Below, one piece after another: positions 3,082 through 14,609 of a stretch of DNA of 64,000 bases (position 1 is its first letter; every line of letters starts with the position of its first letter). The translations under genes were made by a program, and so were the position numbers. The notes under the pieces are model-generated. The model made no database searches and was not told the origin of the DNA. It was given only the letters and a program-made list of their open reading frames with translations. The DNA is from Parabacteroides johnsonii DSM 18315. GTDB taxonomy: Bacteria > Bacteroidota > Bacteroidia > Bacteroidales > Tannerellaceae. Where the stretch lies: assembly GCF_025151045.1 (NCBI RefSeq), contig NZ_CP102285.1, forward strand, positions 62,001 through 126,000, written 5' to 3'.

Positions 3082-3972
3082 ATGGAAGCTTTAGCAACAT
3101 TGAACAATCAGAGACAGTTTGATTTCCAGAACAACGGAATCGAAGTAATGGACCTTGAAACACTACAGCGTACCTACAAGGAGAACGACATCTACGGCAA
3201 TCCGGTCAGGGGTATCTACCACTACCAGGTCATCCAGCGTATGACGGACATCTGCCGCCGTCACAACCTGAACTACGAGGTGGAGGAAATCTTCGCCGCC
3301 CAGAACAAGAACCGGACACAGCCCGGAGTGGTCATCCTGCCGCAGGTGGAACAGACCTATGGAGAGAAGGCGGTAGAGGCACATGTACTGCGCAGAATAT
3401 TCACCACCATCCGTATTCTGAACGGAGATACCGATGAACTGACAACCACACTCGTGGTAGCCTACCATCAGGACGGTATCCAGGCGGCAATAGGTCCCTG
3501 TGTACGTATCTGCCACAACCAGTGTATCCTTTCACCCGAACGAAGCGTTGCCAACTACGGCAAGGACAAGGTGACTACCGAGGAGCTGTTCGGGAAGGTG
3601 GATGACTGGATGCGGAATTTTGAGCGTGACATGGATGCGGACAGAAGCCGAATCCAAAGGCTAAAGGAAAAGGTACTGACACCCGGTGAGTTGTACATGA
3701 TCATAGGTATGCTGACGGCTCTGCGTGTATCCCATGACAGCGCAGACAAGAGACTGGCATCACAGGTGGACACCTATCCGCTCAACCAGGGACAGATTTC
3801 CGTGTTTACGGAAGAACTGCTCAAACTCTCACTTGAACAGCCACGCATTACAGCGTGGGATGTCTACAATGTAGCGACAGAAATCTACAAGCCTGGAAAG
3901 ACTGATTTTCCTGCCATGATTCCACAAAATGGAGCAATGGCCGATTTCCTGCTTTCATATAACCAGAATTAG
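3082..3972 (+). CDS. DUF3871-like ICE protein (296 aa)
   Basis: I place the start at ATG 3082 (MEALATLNNQRQFDF) because the open frame upstream overlaps the methylase-like gene in another frame and has unrelated composition. The protein is soluble, with a central region TLVVAYHQDGIQAAIGPCVR and a helical C-terminus. It resembles the DUF3871 family of Bacteroidales ICEs (recognition from memory, moderate certainty). DUF932-type proteins of phages and plasmids are a more distant possibility. A rho-independent terminator follows about 20 bases after the stop, so it ends the first plus-strand operon. Confidence 0.75.
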   Translation: MEALATLNNQRQFDFQNNGIEVMDLETLQRTYKENDIYGNPVRGIYHYQVIQRMTDICRRHNLNYEVEEIFAAQNKNRTQPGVVILPQVEQTYGEKAVEAHVLRRIFTTIRILNGDTDELTTTLVVAYHQDGIQAAIGPCVRICHNQCILSPERSVANYGKDKVTTEELFGKVDDWMRNFERDMDADRSRIQRLKEKVLTPGELYMIIGMLTALRVSHDSADKRLASQVDTYPLNQGQISVFTEELLKLSLEQPRITAWDVYNVATEIYKPGKTDFPAMIPQNGAMADFLLSYNQN

Positions 3973-4367: not shown

Positions 4368-4961
4368 ATGACAAATGATGAAAACACTTACATCGGAATG
4401 TCCCTGCCGGAAGGAATACGGTACATCACCATTTTTGAAAAAGGGGATTTTGAAAACTGCGGAAGAATACTCAGGACATTCTACCGTACGGAAGACAGGG
4501 TGAGAAAATTGCTCGCTTTGGGAAACCTGCTCCATCTGGGAGGCAGTCTCTCATCAAATGAAAACAAGACAAGCTGCTGGCCTTTGAATAATGGGAATCC
4601 CATTCACGAAGCAAAGGAAATATCAGGCAAGGAAAAGTTCTTCCTGCTCGGTGACTGGACTTACCTGTATGAAAATGGCAGATGGTTTCTGGGCTATGAA
4701 GGAAAAATCTATGAAATCAGCAATCCTGAATTTTCTGTCTTTGTTCCCGACAAGGATCATACACCTTCCCCTCTGGACAAAGGACTTTCCTTTGCCGTAA
4801 TCGGCGAAACGGGAAAACTGGAATTCACTCCGGAAATTGTCAACGGATGGGATATCTGGAAAAGCCTTCCCAAAAGAGTCAGTGAAAAAGGGAAAACGGT
4901 ATATGTATTCCGCAAAACACAACTTATAAAAGTCATCAAACCTAAAAAACTGGAATCATGA
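4368..4961 (+). CDS. ICE accessory protein, unknown (197 aa)
   Basis: Soluble protein, 197 aa. Its middle part carries short aromatic stretches (DWTYLYENGRWFLGYEGKIYEI) that suggest a small beta-rich domain. No family recognised. The stop overlaps the start of the following 644-aa gene as ATGA at 4958-4961, so the two are translationally coupled and probably act together. Confidence 0.7.
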   Translation: MTNDENTYIGMSLPEGIRYITIFEKGDFENCGRILRTFYRTEDRVRKLLALGNLLHLGGSLSSNENKTSCWPLNNGNPIHEAKEISGKEKFFLLGDWTYLYENGRWFLGYEGKIYEISNPEFSVFVPDKDHTPSPLDKGLSFAVIGETGKLEFTPEIVNGWDIWKSLPKRVSEKGKTVYVFRKTQLIKVIKPKKLES

Positions 4962-8736: not shown

Positions 8737-9207
8737 CTATGGCACAAACAGTAATCTGTATTCTTCTTTTCTTCTCCTTTCTATTGACGGAATTTTCTTT
8801 CCCTTATAGTGACAATATCGTATGAAGTCCACATAAATGTTCCGGTTACCGGCTTCCAGTTTCCTTATCAACGTGCTTTTGGGCATCCTGCCATAACCGA
8901 GCAACTTATATGGTCCCACTTGGTATGCCAGACACACAACCAAAAGTGAATCCTTTCCCAGGTGACGGAACAATGCACACATTTCCTTCAGGTCTTTTCT
9001 CAAAATACTGTCTCCCTCACTTTCTGTCAGCCTGGCGGGAAACTTTTCCCCTTTTCTGATACGGTGACCGTATGCGACATAAGGATGATGTTCCGGACCA
9101 TGCCATCCTTCATATTTCTTGATACACCTGACAGCCGTTTCCCAACGTGAGTTTTCCACATTCCCCTGTGCACACAAAGAAGTTACCGTCATGGCCAGTA
9201 CCACCAA
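8737..9207 (-). CDS. Lysozyme (GH24-like), conjugative transposon type
   Basis: Peptidoglycan hydrolase that opens the wall for the mating apparatus. The GH24-like active-site region is KKYEGWHGPEHHPYVAYGHR, with the Glu as catalytic acid. An export signal precedes it. The listed start is TTG at 9207 (MVVLAMTVTSLCAQG). The frame stays open to 9240 and would add ITVRLLRS, giving a better signal peptide with positive charges. AAGGAGG at 9250-9256 sits 9-10 bases before an ATA codon at 9240-9238, next to the traQ stop, so a non-standard start there is possible. Last gene of the tra operon. Confidence 0.85.
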   Translation of the reverse strand: MVVLAMTVTSLCAQGNVENSRWETAVRCIKKYEGWHGPEHHPYVAYGHRIRKGEKFPARLTESEGDSILRKDLKEMCALFRHLGKDSLLVVCLAYQVGPYKLLGYGRMPKSTLIRKLEAGNRNIYVDFIRYCHYKGKKIPSIERRRKEEYRLLFVP

Positions 9208-9239: not shown

Positions 9240-9743
9240 TTATAAGGCACCTCCTTCCTGAGCTGACAATGAATCTTCCACAGTACCTGTTTCTTCATCA
9301 CCTGCATCGTTGAAGTCAAATTCCATTTCCGTCATGTTTCCCCAGTTGTCCTCGACAACGACAATGAAGTTCTGCGCCTCGTCACATAGTGAAGTATAAT
9401 ACAGCCTGAACTTCCGGTTCTCCAGCAGATAACGGTCATTCGGCTTGAATTCAAGACCGTTGTCCAGTTTCAGGGAACCTTCCCCGTCGTACTGGAAATA
9501 ACGGATCGTATAGACCGTACCGTCAAAATCGCCCTCACTTTTGAGCTCACATCGTATTTCCGCCGTATCATTCCTGTTCAGTTCCTTTGGAACCGGCATT
9601 GTTTCCACGGTAAACGGATAACTCTGCTGGATTTCCAGCTCGGATTCGCACGAGGTCAGTACAAGACTGACCAGACCGATACAGAACATGGCAATCTTGC
9701 CTGCCAGCCCAAATCCTTTTCTCATATTCTTTTCTGTCTTCAT
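9240..9743 (-). CDS. traQ: TraQ, conjugative transposon lipoprotein (DUF3872)
   Basis: 167 aa, with an N-terminal signal ending in the lipobox LTSC at about residues 29-32, so a lipoprotein of the cell envelope. The body is beta-rich with an immunoglobulin-like feel. Length and order (after the primase TraP, before the lysozyme) match TraQ of CTnDOT-type elements, DUF3872 family. TraQ is part of the mating-pair apparatus, but its exact job is not known. The start overlaps the traP stop by four bases. Confidence 0.85.
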   Translation of the reverse strand: MKTEKNMRKGFGLAGKIAMFCIGLVSLVLTSCESELEIQQSYPFTVETMPVPKELNRNDTAEIRCELKSEGDFDGTVYTIRYFQYDGEGSLKLDNGLEFKPNDRYLLENRKFRLYYTSLCDEAQNFIVVVEDNWGNMTEMEFDFNDAGDEETGTVEDSLSAQEGGAL

Positions 9744-10431
9744 TTGTTTTCCCTTGTTTTTGTCAGATATTCATTCAAGTCCTTTAATCCATCATACAGA
9801 CCGGAACAGTCCATAACCTTATTCCCGAAATGTATGTTCAAAGTCTCCAGTGCAGTAATCCCGGCCCGATCACGGTCAAGAAAGCACAGGATTTTACCGT
9901 AACCCTCCAGAACGGCATACGACCGTTCCAGATTGGATACAGAGTTCAGCACCAGGCAGTCCTCGTCCTTCACAATCCGCAATACCAATGCCGAAAGGAA
10001 ATCCACAAATCCTTCAAACACGCAGCACGTATCCTGTTTCTTTCCGGACAGGGACACACAGGAAATGTCCTTGGGAGAGATGCATCCCTTGAACATCGGG
10101 TTACGGAGTTCATAGCCGCCGCTCCGGTTCATGAAGCCTATGGCAAAATACCGTTTGCCCCGTATTCCGTATGCCACTTCCTTGCAGAATCTCCCGGCTA
10201 TGGCCGGATCAATGCCTCTCTCTTTCAGGTAACCTTTCAATGCCTCATGACTCAGTTCCGTCACTTTCACGTCCTCGAATCCGGAAACGCGGGGTATCTT
10301 CTTACGTTCCTGTAAAGGCCGGAGGGGAAGGATGCCGGATTTCCCTGAAAGGAACTCCAGCTGTTCCATGAAACCGGTACTTCCGGTCAGTTCTCCGGCA
10401 AGATGGAAGATGTCACCTCCCTTTCCGAGGC
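9740..10431 (-). CDS. traP: TraP primase, exon 2 (TOPRIM part)
   Basis: 3' exon of the conjugative transposon primase. Begins right after the intron end and reads LGKGGDIFHLAGEL onward. The TOPRIM-type centre is visible as VFEGFVDFLSAL and ILCFLDRDRAG (catalytic Glu and DxD pair). Joined to exon 1 (13083-12915) the total is 861 nt, an in-frame 286-aa protein, with TTT-G|GC-CTC restoring a conserved FGLGKGG motif. Known TraP proteins are thought to prime the complementary strand in the recipient. Function here depends on intron splicing. Confidence 0.85.
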
Positions 10432-10439
10432 GTAGGCTC

Positions 10440-10527
10440 GGTACAGGACGCCTTACTGCCTTTCGGCAGTAGGTTTTCCCGTACCTGCCCCCAAACCGTA
10501 CTTGCATGTCTCCACGCATACGGCTCT
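10440..10527 (-). ncRNA. Group II intron domains V and VI
   Basis: Minus strand: AGCCGTATGCG, a short loop region, then GTACGGTTT form the domain V hairpin (about 10492-10527), the catalytic core of group II introns. The following segment to 10440 pairs GGTACGG with CCTGTACC-like bases and contains the hairpin ACTGCCGAAAGGCAGT, fitting domain VI with the branch-point A. The maturase stop at 10545 lies just upstream of domain V, the usual spacing. Confidence 0.85.
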
Positions 10528-10544
10528 CCGTTGATAACATGACT

Positions 10545-12374
10545 TTATTTGGCATGGTTGTGTATTTGGGCATAGCACTTTTCACAGACAACCAATGTTT
10601 TCCTATGCTTTTCAAGCATCAGCCTGTCGCATTCAGTCTTTCCTTTAAGCTGGTTTAGCTTTCTGACATGACGCATGACTACAGGCCCGACTTTTCTACA
10701 TAATTCACATGTTCTCGCCTCCAATCGCTCAGTCAGCGTCGGTTGTGGAATTGCGATTGTATAGGATAAGTCGTTTACTTCCGCATAGTACATTGGTGGT
10801 TTACGTTTGAATCCCTCATTATAGAATTTTCTGTGCCGTAAGTTACCTTTTGCATCATGATATGGCACTATAATGTCATTTCCAACCTTGTATTTGTCAA
10901 TGATTTTGCTTACAGTGCTGTTGGTCTTTGCTGCAATGGTATGGTACATACTGTACTCCATGATGTATCCAAACTTTGAGAGTGCATAAGCCACGTTATT
11001 AGCAATGCGGTAATAGTTATAGAACCCTCTGATTTCAGAGTTATATGCCGCCACTATGTCCTCGATTTTCTTCTTCATGAGATTGCCTCTGAACTTTGCA
11101 AACCAAACTTGTCGGCCATTTTCTACCTTGTATCTGATGGCACTGTATTCTTCCAGTTTGTTCCGCACCGTTTCTATGGCGACCTTTAAGACTATCTTAC
11201 CGTTGTAATAGCGGGCTGGCACATTGTTCTTGTTTCGCTTGACTGCATCAGATTTACGGACAGAAACATCGAAGCCAAGAAATTTCGCTGGCTTTTGTGC
11301 GTTTGTTATCAATGTCTTTTCCTGCGACAGTTCCAACTTGAGGTTTTCTTCCATATACTTGGTAATGTCCGACTTGATTTTAACGCAGTCAGCCTTGCTT
11401 CCGATAACACCTATGAGGAAATCATCTGCGTATCTTACATATCTAAGCCTTCTGTATGTTTCATCCATACTGTCTCTGCTCTCAATCTTTTGCCTTTCAC
11501 GTCTCAGTTTCTCATACTCATCCATAAGCTGTAGTCTGGCATCTGCATCCTGTATGTTCTTGATGCTTTTAAGGATGCCTTGCATTTTACCGCTGAACTG
11601 CTTGTATTCTTTGGTGATGTGTCTTTCTTTTCCCTTGTTGAAGCGTAGGGCGTATTCTTCCATATACTTGTCAAAATTGTCAAGATAAATGTTGGCCAGT
11701 ATAGGACTGATGTTGCCGCCTTGTGGGGTTCCCTTGTTTGTATTATGAAACCTCCAGTCTTCAATATATCCCGCATTCAACAACTTGCGGATGAGCCTTA
11801 GAAATCTATCATCGGCAATCCGTTTCCGCAAAGTTGCAATCAATACATTGTGGTCTATGTTGTCAAAGAATCCTTTAATGTCTCCTTCCACAAACCATTT
11901 TGTACCTGTGAATGTCTTTTGGATATGGGTCAGTGCGGTATGGCAGCTTCTGTTTGGCCTGAATCCATGTGAGGTGTTTGCAAACACCTCTTCATAGATG
12001 GCTTCAAGAATCATGCACACCACCTCCTGTACAAGTTTGTCCTCAAAGGAAGGAATCCCAAGCGGTCTTTTCTTACCGTTCTTCTTGGGTATGTATATCC
12101 TTTTTGCCGGATTAGGCTTGTAAGACTCATCCCTCAAAGATGCAATGACCTTGTTTATTCTTTGAAGGCTCATCTGGTTAATGGTTTTCCCATCCGTACC
12201 GGGTGTCATGTTGCCGGGTTTGGCGTAAATACGCTGGTAGGCAACATGAAACATCTCCTCATTGAATAAGATACGGTACAGCCTTTCGAACTTGTAATCC
12301 GAAACTTTACCATGCTTTTTTAAAGCTTTTAATACTTGCTCTGGACTTCTCATAATGTCTCGCACATTTTCCAT
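10545..12374 (-). CDS. ltrA: Group II intron reverse transcriptase/maturase with HNH endonuclease
   Basis: 609 aa, full length. Reverse transcriptase motifs run from about residue 60 to 350, including GKKRPLGIPSFEDKL, the HGFRPNRS block, GTPQGG and the catalytic RYADDF at about 313-318. A maturase (X) domain follows (about 420-500). A C-terminal HNH endonuclease shows two zinc-binding CxxC pairs (CELC ... CEKC) with MRHVRKLN and a terminal IHNHAK. So the protein can splice, nick target DNA and reverse-transcribe, as expected of a mobile retrohoming intron. All motifs look intact. Confidence 0.95.
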   Translation of the reverse strand: MENVRDIMRSPEQVLKALKKHGKVSDYKFERLYRILFNEEMFHVAYQRIYAKPGNMTPGTDGKTINQMSLQRINKVIASLRDESYKPNPAKRIYIPKKNGKKRPLGIPSFEDKLVQEVVCMILEAIYEEVFANTSHGFRPNRSCHTALTHIQKTFTGTKWFVEGDIKGFFDNIDHNVLIATLRKRIADDRFLRLIRKLLNAGYIEDWRFHNTNKGTPQGGNISPILANIYLDNFDKYMEEYALRFNKGKERHITKEYKQFSGKMQGILKSIKNIQDADARLQLMDEYEKLRRERQKIESRDSMDETYRRLRYVRYADDFLIGVIGSKADCVKIKSDITKYMEENLKLELSQEKTLITNAQKPAKFLGFDVSVRKSDAVKRNKNNVPARYYNGKIVLKVAIETVRNKLEEYSAIRYKVENGRQVWFAKFRGNLMKKKIEDIVAAYNSEIRGFYNYYRIANNVAYALSKFGYIMEYSMYHTIAAKTNSTVSKIIDKYKVGNDIIVPYHDAKGNLRHRKFYNEGFKRKPPMYYAEVNDLSYTIAIPQPTLTERLEARTCELCRKVGPVVMRHVRKLNQLKGKTECDRLMLEKHRKTLVVCEKCYAQIHNHAK

Positions 12375-12914
12375 TGTTTGTATTAAGTTATCTAACTGCT
12401 CCCCTTCGCCATGTACAAGGCTTTCCCTTGCTCGGACTACTACGGAAGCTCCGTTCCCATGTCAGATATTCAGAGCCTTATGCCCATAGCCTTACGGCAT
12501 TCTGATTTAGGGAATCCCCATTTGCTTTCACAATAACTGTTTGGCTCGGCAGACTGTCGGATGCGACTTACGTTCCTATTCCGCTTATTGCGGTTGCTCT
12601 GAAGCCAGTTCTTGCCCCGCTGCAATTTCGGTTTACATGGGGTGCTTCAGCCCGACGTGAATCAAATACCTTTCGTCGGGGCTGGCACGTGTGCCGCAGA
12701 ACTATCGTTCAACCAATCAGGCTTCATCCTTGTGTCTGCCTTTTCCTCTTGCCATGCAGTCGCAGCTTGGTATTTAGCTGACTAATGGCTTTACCGACAT
12801 GCTACTGTCACCTTTGGATTTCTCCTCCAGCTAAGTCGTTGAGGATAGGTCTGTTGAACTCTAACCTAATCTCTTGCCATAGAGATATTTATTGTGTAGC
12901 CTATATGGGCGCAT

Positions 12915-13083
12915 CAAAATCAAACCAGACATTCCGCTGCGTATCCACCTTGAAGGATGCGGTTCTCTCATTTCTGAAAGGGGATCTGAACCAGACATCA
13001 TTTCCTTTACGGGATACAGGCATATGCCCCAGATTTTCAAGAAAACCGACAATGGAAATCTGTCTAATCTGTTCCAGTTCCAT
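12915..13083 (-). CDS. traP: TraP primase, exon 1 (N-terminal, CHC2-like region)
   Basis: Starts MELEQIRQISIVGFLENLG at 13083, seven bases after the traO stop. It covers the primase zinc-finger-like fold: the stretch FRSPFRNERTASFKV matches the CHC2 primase core, but the zinc cysteines are missing, as usual in these ICE primases. If unspliced, the frame runs six codons into the intron (ending DAPI, stop at 12901), giving a useless 60-aa peptide. 169 nt belong to the exon. See exon 2 at 9740-10431. Confidence 0.85.
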
Positions 13084-13089
13084 AACCCG

Positions 13090-13647
13090 CTAATTTATCA
13101 TAAAACGGATGCCGATTCCATATTGGGTATGGCAATGTCCGAGACTTCCGCCCCACAGGAAACGCTCACGCAAGGAAGCCGTCAATGCCACACGGTCGGC
13201 AAGGTACAGTTCCATCTCCAGCGTCAGGGCACAGCCGTACACAAAGGCATCGCCGTTTTTCAGAGTGGCCCCGTCATAGAGTTTTTTATCGGACCAGTTT
13301 ACCGTCTCATATCCGGCCAAAGCCGATCCTCCCAGATTGAGGAAGAACACTTTTCCTGCATCGGAAAGGAAATTCAGGTAATATCCGCCTTCTGCCGTAA
13401 ACTGCGCCGAAGGGATGGTCACATGACGGTAACCGTGCTTCATGTGCAGGTATTCCGCTCCATATACCCATTTGTTCCCGCTTTTGGCATAGCTTGAAAG
13501 TGTCATTCCCATATAGTATCCGTTATCGGAAGCCATACCTCCACGCATTTCCACACCCTGCATCCTTGGCAGAATCCGCTGGGCGTCTGCCTGCCCTACG
13601 GAAAGGACAAGCAGCAATGCCAGCATATACAATACTTTCGTTCTCAT
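13090..13647 (-). CDS. traO: TraO, conjugative transposon outer-membrane protein
   Basis: 185 aa with a clear signal peptide (MRTKVLYMLALLLVLSVGQADAQ). The mature part alternates hydrophobic and polar residues and has glycine/aromatic turns, as in a small beta-barrel, and ends in IRFMIN. Size, signal and order (traN before, traP after) match TraO of CTnDOT-family elements. Probably an outer-membrane component of the mating channel. Start overlaps traN by four bases. Confidence 0.85.
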   Translation of the reverse strand: MRTKVLYMLALLLVLSVGQADAQRILPRMQGVEMRGGMASDNGYYMGMTLSSYAKSGNKWVYGAEYLHMKHGYRHVTIPSAQFTAEGGYYLNFLSDAGKVFFLNLGGSALAGYETVNWSDKKLYDGATLKNGDAFVYGCALTLEMELYLADRVALTASLRERFLWGGSLGHCHTQYGIGIRFMIN

Positions 13648-14609
13648 CGTACCTTCAGTTCATTGATGGTTTCAGCACGCACCAGGTCTTCGTTGACCAC
13701 CTCAAAACTCTGGTGACGGCCGCCCTGTTTCTCATACATCTCCACAACCAGTTTCTTGTCGTCCGGTATCGTAAACTTGGGAAGGGCGAATACCGTGCAT
13801 TCCGAATCCCTGCCGTTTACACGTGTCACATAATTATAGGCACGCAGCGGATAAATCACCTGCTCCTGCATGGCCGTACGCTTCATCACCTTTTTGTCCA
13901 CCACCTTGAACGTAATGAAATCCACGTCAAAGGGCACATTCGAGGAGTTCTTTACCTGGGTATGGAAATAAAGCAGGTCATTATGGGTGTATACCCCTTT
14001 GAGCAGATACTGGATACCGAAACGCTTACAGCCGATATGACGGATACGGCGCTTGTCATTCTCATACACGGATTTCATGATAAGACGTACCAGACGGGGT
14101 GACTCGTTATCCAGCTCGGTCAGATAGATTTCCATGGCATTGTTGGGACGGTTCACCGATTCTCCGTCATGGATGAAATCACACATCTCCACATTCAGCA
14201 GTAACGGCTCATCGGCATACTTCACGTTGAAGGTATAGAAGTTCCCGTCTTCGGTTATTACAGACATATTGGTCTCCTCCCTGAAATTGCGTGTCGTGGC
14301 CTTTACTCGGATTACATTCTCGGCACCGTCGGCCTTGCCGGCTATCAGGTTTGTAGAACCAAGATCCACATACTTGACCGGAGCCGGGAAAATGACATGT
14401 ACAGTCTTGTCATACGTTATTTCCAGTCCGTGCGGCGGAATCATCTGGCTGAAACCGATCTTGCGGGTCAGCCCCTCATAATAATCACCGCTACTCTGCT
14501 GCGCCCAAGCAGCCGATACGCCCAGTAAAAGGGCAAACATCATCAGAATCTTCTTCATGTGCTTTTGTTTAATGGTTGTCTTTTCTTTCATAGTTTTCCT
14601 GTATTTCAT
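13644..14609 (-). CDS. traN: TraN, VirB9-like channel protein
   Basis: 321 aa; family role: periplasmic/outer-membrane core component of the mating channel, VirB9-like. The listed start at 14609 overlaps traM by four bases (ATGA). An internal ATG at 14558 (MKKILMMFALLLGVSAAWAQ) gives a textbook signal peptide and may be the true start. The mature part has the VirB9-type opening (LEITYDKTVHVIFPAPVKYVDLG at about residues 60-82). Confidence 0.88.
   Translation of the reverse strand: MKYRKTMKEKTTIKQKHMKKILMMFALLLGVSAAWAQQSSGDYYEGLTRKIGFSQMIPPHGLEITYDKTVHVIFPAPVKYVDLGSTNLIAGKADGAENVIRVKATTRNFREETNMSVITEDGNFYTFNVKYADEPLLLNVEMCDFIHDGESVNRPNNAMEIYLTELDNESPRLVRLIMKSVYENDKRRIRHIGCKRFGIQYLLKGVYTHNDLLYFHTQVKNSSNVPFDVDFITFKVVDKKVMKRTAMQEQVIYPLRAYNYVTRVNGRDSECTVFALPKFTIPDDKKLVVEMYEKQGGRHQSFEVVNEDLVRAETINELKVR

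Follow-up and report, generated by a model that had tools for sequence, protein, structure and literature searches.

The first nucleotide of group II introns, G1, is regarded as almost invariant, since it is the base that becomes linked to the branch A and that, in the second step of splicing, touches the penultimate base. Among the closest described systems, Ll.LtrB of Lactococcus lactis lies in a relaxase gene and starts with G. RmInt1 of Sinorhizobium meliloti is a class D/IIB-type intron. It has C for A at the penultimate position, the nucleotide reported in contact with nucleotide 1 in the second step (PMC4238363, PMC3669008), and it is an efficient mobile intron (PMC4238363). The group II consensus, GUGYG...AY, has rare published exceptions at its 5' end. 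UHB.I2 has UUGCG...GU (PMC7923331), an organelle survey lists UUGCG and GGGCG as 5' ends (PMC6867995), and 5' substitutions occur in Ulva mitochondrial IIA introns (PMC13026550). Here, we describe an intron of Parabacteroides johnsonii that begins with AUGCG, and we compare it with introns that share this start and with sister introns that begin with G. On comparative grounds it very probably belongs to a mobile LtrA-type (IIA) lineage that has kept a G to A change at nucleotide 1 and that targets the DF/G codon of TraP-like primases.

The intron and its host gene

The window is the whole stretch of DNA that was analysed, 64,000 nucleotides in length. The intron lies on its minus strand within a tra cluster of order N-O-P, where TraN and TraO are upstream of traP. 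The features are listed below; a slash in a sequence marks a splice junction.

10432..12914, minus strand: group II intron (IIA, LtrA/mitochondrial-like), 2483 nt, 5'-AUGCG...CCUAC-3'; assigned from Rfam RF00029, homologues with the same ends, the empty allele and the EBS/IBS register
12914, minus strand: first intron nucleotide, A (all 46 aligned sisters have G); from homologue alignment and register scan
12903..12920, minus strand: 5' splice region, GATTTTG/ATGCGCCCATA
12684..12689, minus strand: EBS2 (CGUGCC), partner IBS2 GGTTTG in the 5' exon; from exon-intron covariation in 48 introns
12624..12630, minus strand: EBS1 (CGAAAUU), partner IBS1 GATTTTG at exon -7 to -1; from covariation and register scan
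12631, minus strand: delta nucleotide (C), partner the +1 G of the 3' exon, a mark of IIA introns; paired in 41 of the 47 introns counted
12452, minus strand: candidate gamma (G, in J2/3), partner of the last intron nucleotide C10432 and A in both U-ending introns; a weak candidate, as the column of intron nucleotide 331 fits too and both U-ending introns are of one clade
10545..12374, minus strand: intron-encoded protein (IEP), 609 aa, with reverse transcriptase, maturase and AI2M-like HNH endonuclease; LtrA match at E 1.4e-142
10493..10526, minus strand: domain V, GAGA tetraloop at 10509-10512 and bulge at 10502-10503; from Rfam and consensus fold
10434..10490, minus strand: domain VI, predicted branch A at 10438, the seventh nucleotide from the 3' end; from consensus fold, with the branch A placed by position
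12915..13083, minus strand: traP 5' exon, the CHC2 zinc-ribbon part (MELEQ...WFDF, 56 codons, and the first base of the Gly codon)
9740..10431, minus strand: traP 3' exon, from the Gly codon to the stop (Toprim_2)
13090-13647, minus strand: TraO
13644-14609, minus strand: TraN

The intron starts at A12914, in the context ...GATTTTG/ATGCGCCC..., and ends at C10432, in the context ...GAGCCTAC/GCCTCGG.... The full RF00029 model, which covers domains V and VI, matched 10432-10528 with 58.7 bits against a gathering score of 40. In the consensus fold, domain V has the GAGA loop and a 2-nt bulge, and domain VI has a bulged GA containing A10438. The consensus fold of the 5' part was made with RNAalifold, with domains I-III uncurated. 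The 3' end, AGCCTAC, fits the AY consensus, while the 5' end agrees with GUGYG at positions 2-5 and differs at position 1. Since UUGCG and GGGCG are already published as exceptions to GUGYG, we kept the intron within the group II family. The IEP has a YADD motif, is intact in all of its domains, and aligns with LtrA almost end to end (residues 14-607 of 609). It is a mitochondrial-like, LtrA-type protein, a full-length RT-X-En homologue with HNH. A reading of the window made earlier from its sequence only had judged the maturase and domain V intact, and these results agree with it.

When 48 introns were scanned against their own 5' exons, intron nucleotides 285-291 and 226-231 were the clear best positions for EBS1 and EBS2, respectively. 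In most of these introns, the nucleotide preceding EBS1 is complementary to exon base +1, and the pair is C-G in all four complete introns that begin with A, hereafter A1 introns. The subclass of the intron is IIA. In the window, EBS2 and IBS2 form five of six pairs, two of them wobbles, which is slightly weaker than in two of the other A1 introns (L002 and L111).

The split host gene is a TraP-type primase. When the exons are joined, they give an open reading frame of 286 aa that contains WFDFGLGKGGDI and scores above the Pfam cut-offs for both Zn_ribbon_DnaG (CHC2) and Toprim_2. In the unspliced mRNA, a TAG at 12901-12903 would end translation after a 60-aa fragment. A congeneric genome (G041) has an intron-less traP, which is uninterrupted, matches the joined exons at 95.6% identity along the full 861 nt, and shows the empty site GATTTTG/GTCTC, where GATTTTGGTCTC codes the Gly. 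The empty allele thus concurs with the sequence-only reading that removal of 10432-12914 restores an in-frame TraP, and both ends that it gave are exact.

The genome of the window also has a second TraN-TraO-TraP cluster, in which traP codes for 297 aa and holds a perfect vacant intron target, GGTTTGATTTTG/G, at G000:C1:2814366-2814378 (L147, L178). Downstream of the split traP, a small open reading frame at 8737-9207 of the window has a weak match to the gene transfer agent endolysin BgtA (27 bits against a cut-off of 315), and it is more likely a lysozyme-like gene of the tra cluster.

The position of the 5' boundary decides whether the first nucleotide is A. The summed score for EBS1, EBS2 and delta pairing is +24 to +31 at the boundary given above in four A1 introns (window, L002, L003 and L111) and negative at every slide of 1-3 nt; for the window, moving both boundaries by 1-3 nt takes it from +24 to -4 or lower. 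A true splice site one nucleotide upstream, with G12915 as the real G1, would agree with the G that all A1 introns found have at exon -1, and a one-base shift at both ends should stay in frame, giving DFR for DFG. C.te.I1 is a known case of a splice site that lies upstream of the motif (PMC3919590). However, the slide by -1 brings the score from 24-31 down to between -4 and -11, the Gly is coded by GATTTTGGTCTC in the empty allele, and the C at the 3' end is fixed by sister introns, which share the end AGCCTAY in many different sites. A shifted splice site is therefore highly improbable. Because the empty allele, the ends of sister introns and the EBS/delta register agree as independent lines of evidence, we take A12914 to be intron nucleotide 1.

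A1 introns in other primase genes

A1 introns were found at five loci: the window, L002 (B. nordii JCM 12987), L003 (B. reticulotermitis JCM 10512), and L111 and L113, which are IMG/VR contigs. All five start with ATGCG, follow a G at exon -1, and are inserted at the same DF/G codon of primases. L002 and L003 were found by an IEP search (96% identical protein) and L111 by a search of viral contigs, so that these three, found by protein, are independent evidence on base 1; L113 is not, since it came from a pattern search that demanded A at position 1. The introns of L002 and L003 are 100% identical over 2483 nt and that of L111 differs from them at 2 positions (99.92%), while the window intron is 95.5% identical to all three, with 110-112 positions different. 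The A1 introns thus amount to about two distinct sequence lineages, with three copies being nearly one sequence.

That a G had been turned into A at 12914 by base calling or assembly is scarcely conceivable, as the same base is present in B. nordii, in B. reticulotermitis and in the two IMG/VR contigs, on different flanks; these independent assemblies exclude the sequencing error that the sequence-only reading had considered. In the genome of the window, the intron is single-copy. No further A1 copies were found among 395 genomes of the phylum beyond the window's own genome, and the plasmid search gave no near-identical copies of the window intron. In IMG/VR, 24 contigs contain GTGCGCCCATATAGG, but none of them encodes an IEP of the A1 lineage or matches the intron, so that no G1 copy of this lineage was found there.

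The hosts of these introns are much more diverged than the introns themselves. The 700-nt flanks of the near-identical A1 introns can be aligned only in short pieces, and the full or near-full host primases have 39.8-44% amino-acid identity. For L113, where only a 56-aa N-terminus of the primase is available, the identity is 75% to that of L002 and 45-46% to those of the window and L111. With an integrase, a coupling protein and MobC/NikA-like genes among the neighbours, the A1 introns seem to reside in mobile elements of several kinds. The contig that carries L111 and L112 (IMGVR_UViG_2514885005_000001) is filed as viral, and it has a Bacteroidales-type integrase, an AAA ATPase, an HTH protein and a primase near the intron; it looks like an integrative element rather than a phage.

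The joined primase exons are open in the window, L002 and L111. In L003, a TGA stands in place of the Trp of its relatives, four codons upstream of the junction (about 4450-4460), and it also spoils one IBS2 pair. In L113 (1-50), about 567 nt match the A1 intron and the match stops where the contig ends, likely because of an inserted element or an assembly joint. The stop codon and the break mean that not every A1 copy lies in a working gene.

Because the same A occurs in near-identical introns within distantly related primase genes, we consider A1 an inherited working trait and not an error. Near-identical introns that occupy one codon of diverged genes also indicate, at the level of sequence, that the A1 introns moved recently. 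The simplest route for such spread of a group II intron is retrohoming, which requires excised intron RNA. Bacteroidales mobile elements recombine often, and the A1 intron could in principle have reached other primases by ordinary DNA recombination between elements. Such an exchange would be expected to drag flanking DNA along, but the identity of 95.5-100% does not extend beyond the introns, which occupy the same codon of five different primase genes, and this makes the route very unlikely.

G1 sister introns

Of 50 aligned introns whose 5' ends are intact, the four complete members of the A1 lineage have A as first nucleotide and 46 sisters have G (GTGCG); these sisters include several near-copies and are not 46 independent events. 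The alignment, with the register scan that fixes the boundary, bears out the earlier observation that the 5' nucleotide is A and not G. The sisters (L005-L034, L082-L117 and L173-L176, from Bacteroidales and Bacillota) have 48-62% identical IEPs. Like the A1 introns, they have ends of the form xTGCGYCC...AGCCTAY and the same positions of EBS1 and EBS2; unlike them, they have G at nucleotide 1, with the exception of a single MAG copy (L023), and mostly other target genes. More distant introns on Bacteroides and Alistipes plasmids and in one phage-collection record also begin with G. The suggestion that this class tolerates A1 is thus supported within a single small lineage, but not across the class, whose sisters are G1.

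The IEP tree places the four A1 introns in a single clade (support 100/100) with a long branch leading to it, 0.53 changes per site, and gives no resolved nearest sister group for this clade. L023 (Oscillospiraceae MAG, position 3856) belongs to an unrelated clade and starts with ATGCG, while its own sister L024 starts with GTGCG. It was set aside as a second independent origin of A1, being a single MAG contig in which IBS1, judged by eye, pairs poorly with the EBS1 position; either a second origin or a damaged copy is possible. A separate clade of G1 sisters (L013-L018, L020, L021, L038 and L087) targets one codon of a TTQIYA/KIT-like motif, which is presumably the active-site tyrosine motif of tyrosine recombinases. 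It reads as a further instance of homing in which the target is a conserved codon in genes of mobile elements.

Selection and splicing of the A1 lineage

Between the window and L002, the IEP has a dS of 0.196 and a dN of 0.017 (dN/dS 0.089), and the RNA regions have diverged by 3.2%; their first 109 nt are unchanged, and their last 113 nt carry a single change. Given this dN/dS and an RNA divergence well below dS, both A1 lineages kept the protein and the ribozyme after A1 was fixed. Probably, A1 was fixed once in the lineage of the window intron; this lineage afterwards remained under selection and has recently spread from one mobile element to another.

These values bear directly on whether A1 is a damaging mutation in a decaying intron, with poor splicing and reduced TraP and transfer, as the sequence-only reading had proposed in part. 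G1 is nearly invariant, its reported partner in the second step is the penultimate nucleotide (PMC3669008, PMC4238363), which is still A here, and the EBS2-IBS2 pairing of the window has one mismatch and two wobbles. But A1 is older than the split of two lineages that are still selected in both IEP and RNA, A1 introns that are 99.9-100% identical lie within primases about 40% identical, and the traP exons of the window are open. A damaged intron is thus unlikely, and weakened splicing with reduced TraP finds no support and is not favoured: IEP and ribozyme are under purifying selection, and the A1 intron appears to have spread recently. Loss of TraP function is not indicated, although A1 may slow splicing modestly. 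The same reading had named active homologues that naturally begin with A as evidence that would remove the anomaly; at the level of sequence, B. nordii, B. reticulotermitis and the two IMG/VR contigs supply them.

A change elsewhere in the intron could compensate for A1, but the alignment of A1 and G1 introns gave no clear candidate. Besides nucleotide 1, the A1 lineage differs from at least 93% of the sisters at nucleotide 252, at nucleotide 391 and in one base pair of domain V. The latter, above the bulge, is G-C in the A1 introns and A-U in 43 aligned sisters, and it was rejected as compensation because it is also G-C in the G1 introns L024 and L032. No co-change of gamma or the penultimate nucleotide with A1 was seen: A1 and G1 introns both end in AGCCTAC, with the penultimate A unchanged.

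Splicing and mobility could also proceed mostly through water and not through the branch A, with the intron moving as linear RNA. The contact between nucleotide 1 and the penultimate nucleotide suggests that A1 could weaken branching or the second step, and some other introns have been described as retrohoming in linear form (PMC3280974). In the A1 introns, however, the bulged A of domain VI is kept, and the 113 nt of 3' RNA have a single change between the lineages. All five insertions also have clean, identical 5' ends, where insertion of linear RNA is expected to damage the ends. We regard a linear route as improbable.

Proposed mechanism and meaning

Splicing in vivo, a lariat with A1 and retrohoming as the route of spread are what we infer from the sequences. 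The target would be the conserved DF/G codon after the zinc-ribbon in TraP-like primases of conjugative and mobilizable Bacteroidales elements. The transcript would fold so that IBS2, IBS1 and the +1 G are held by EBS2, EBS1 and delta, with the IEP serving as maturase. The predicted branch A (10438) would attack the G/A junction and form a 2'-5' bond to A1, and joining of the exons would then restore full TraP. The lariat-IEP particle would reverse splice into intron-less primase genes at the same codon, where the reverse transcriptase would copy the intron.

The A1 anomaly thus appears to be a trait of the lineage, carried by a mobile intron that has specialised on the primase genes of transferable elements. 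Tentatively, the A1 lineage might even be fully branching and mobile with no compensation at the penultimate position, perhaps by way of the maturase or of the changes at nucleotides 252 and 391, as a natural AU-AC group II intron; we hold this to be possible but rather doubtful. If it were so, the lineage would be a natural test of the purpose of G1. With a normal penultimate A and G1 sisters at hand, the role of G1 can be tested in this lineage by simple swaps. There is also a warning for annotation, as a search with a fixed GUGYG would misplace or miss the window intron and call traP broken. In the open papers searched, no report of A1 was found, and A1 as such may be new to the literature.

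Comparison with known systems

The minor-spliceosome AU-AC introns begin with AU and end with AC, as the window intron does. This likeness is superficial, because the 3' AC is common to the G1 sisters and did not change together with A1. Ll.LtrB, a IIA intron with a mitochondrial-like IEP (LtrA), shares with the window intron a near full-length IEP with reverse transcriptase, maturase and HNH, and a delta nucleotide beside EBS1. Each of the two introns is housed in a gene for conjugation that belongs to a mobile element; unlike Ll.LtrB, the window intron has a primase as its host and A as its first nucleotide. UHB.I2 of Halorhodospira halochloris is, like the window intron, a natural intron with a first nucleotide other than G; it differs in its ends, in being predicted as group IIB and in lying near a CALIN (PMC7923331). 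RmInt1 shares a natural departure at the contact between the first and the penultimate nucleotide (PMC4238363), but its departure is at the 3' end, while that of the window intron is at nucleotide 1.
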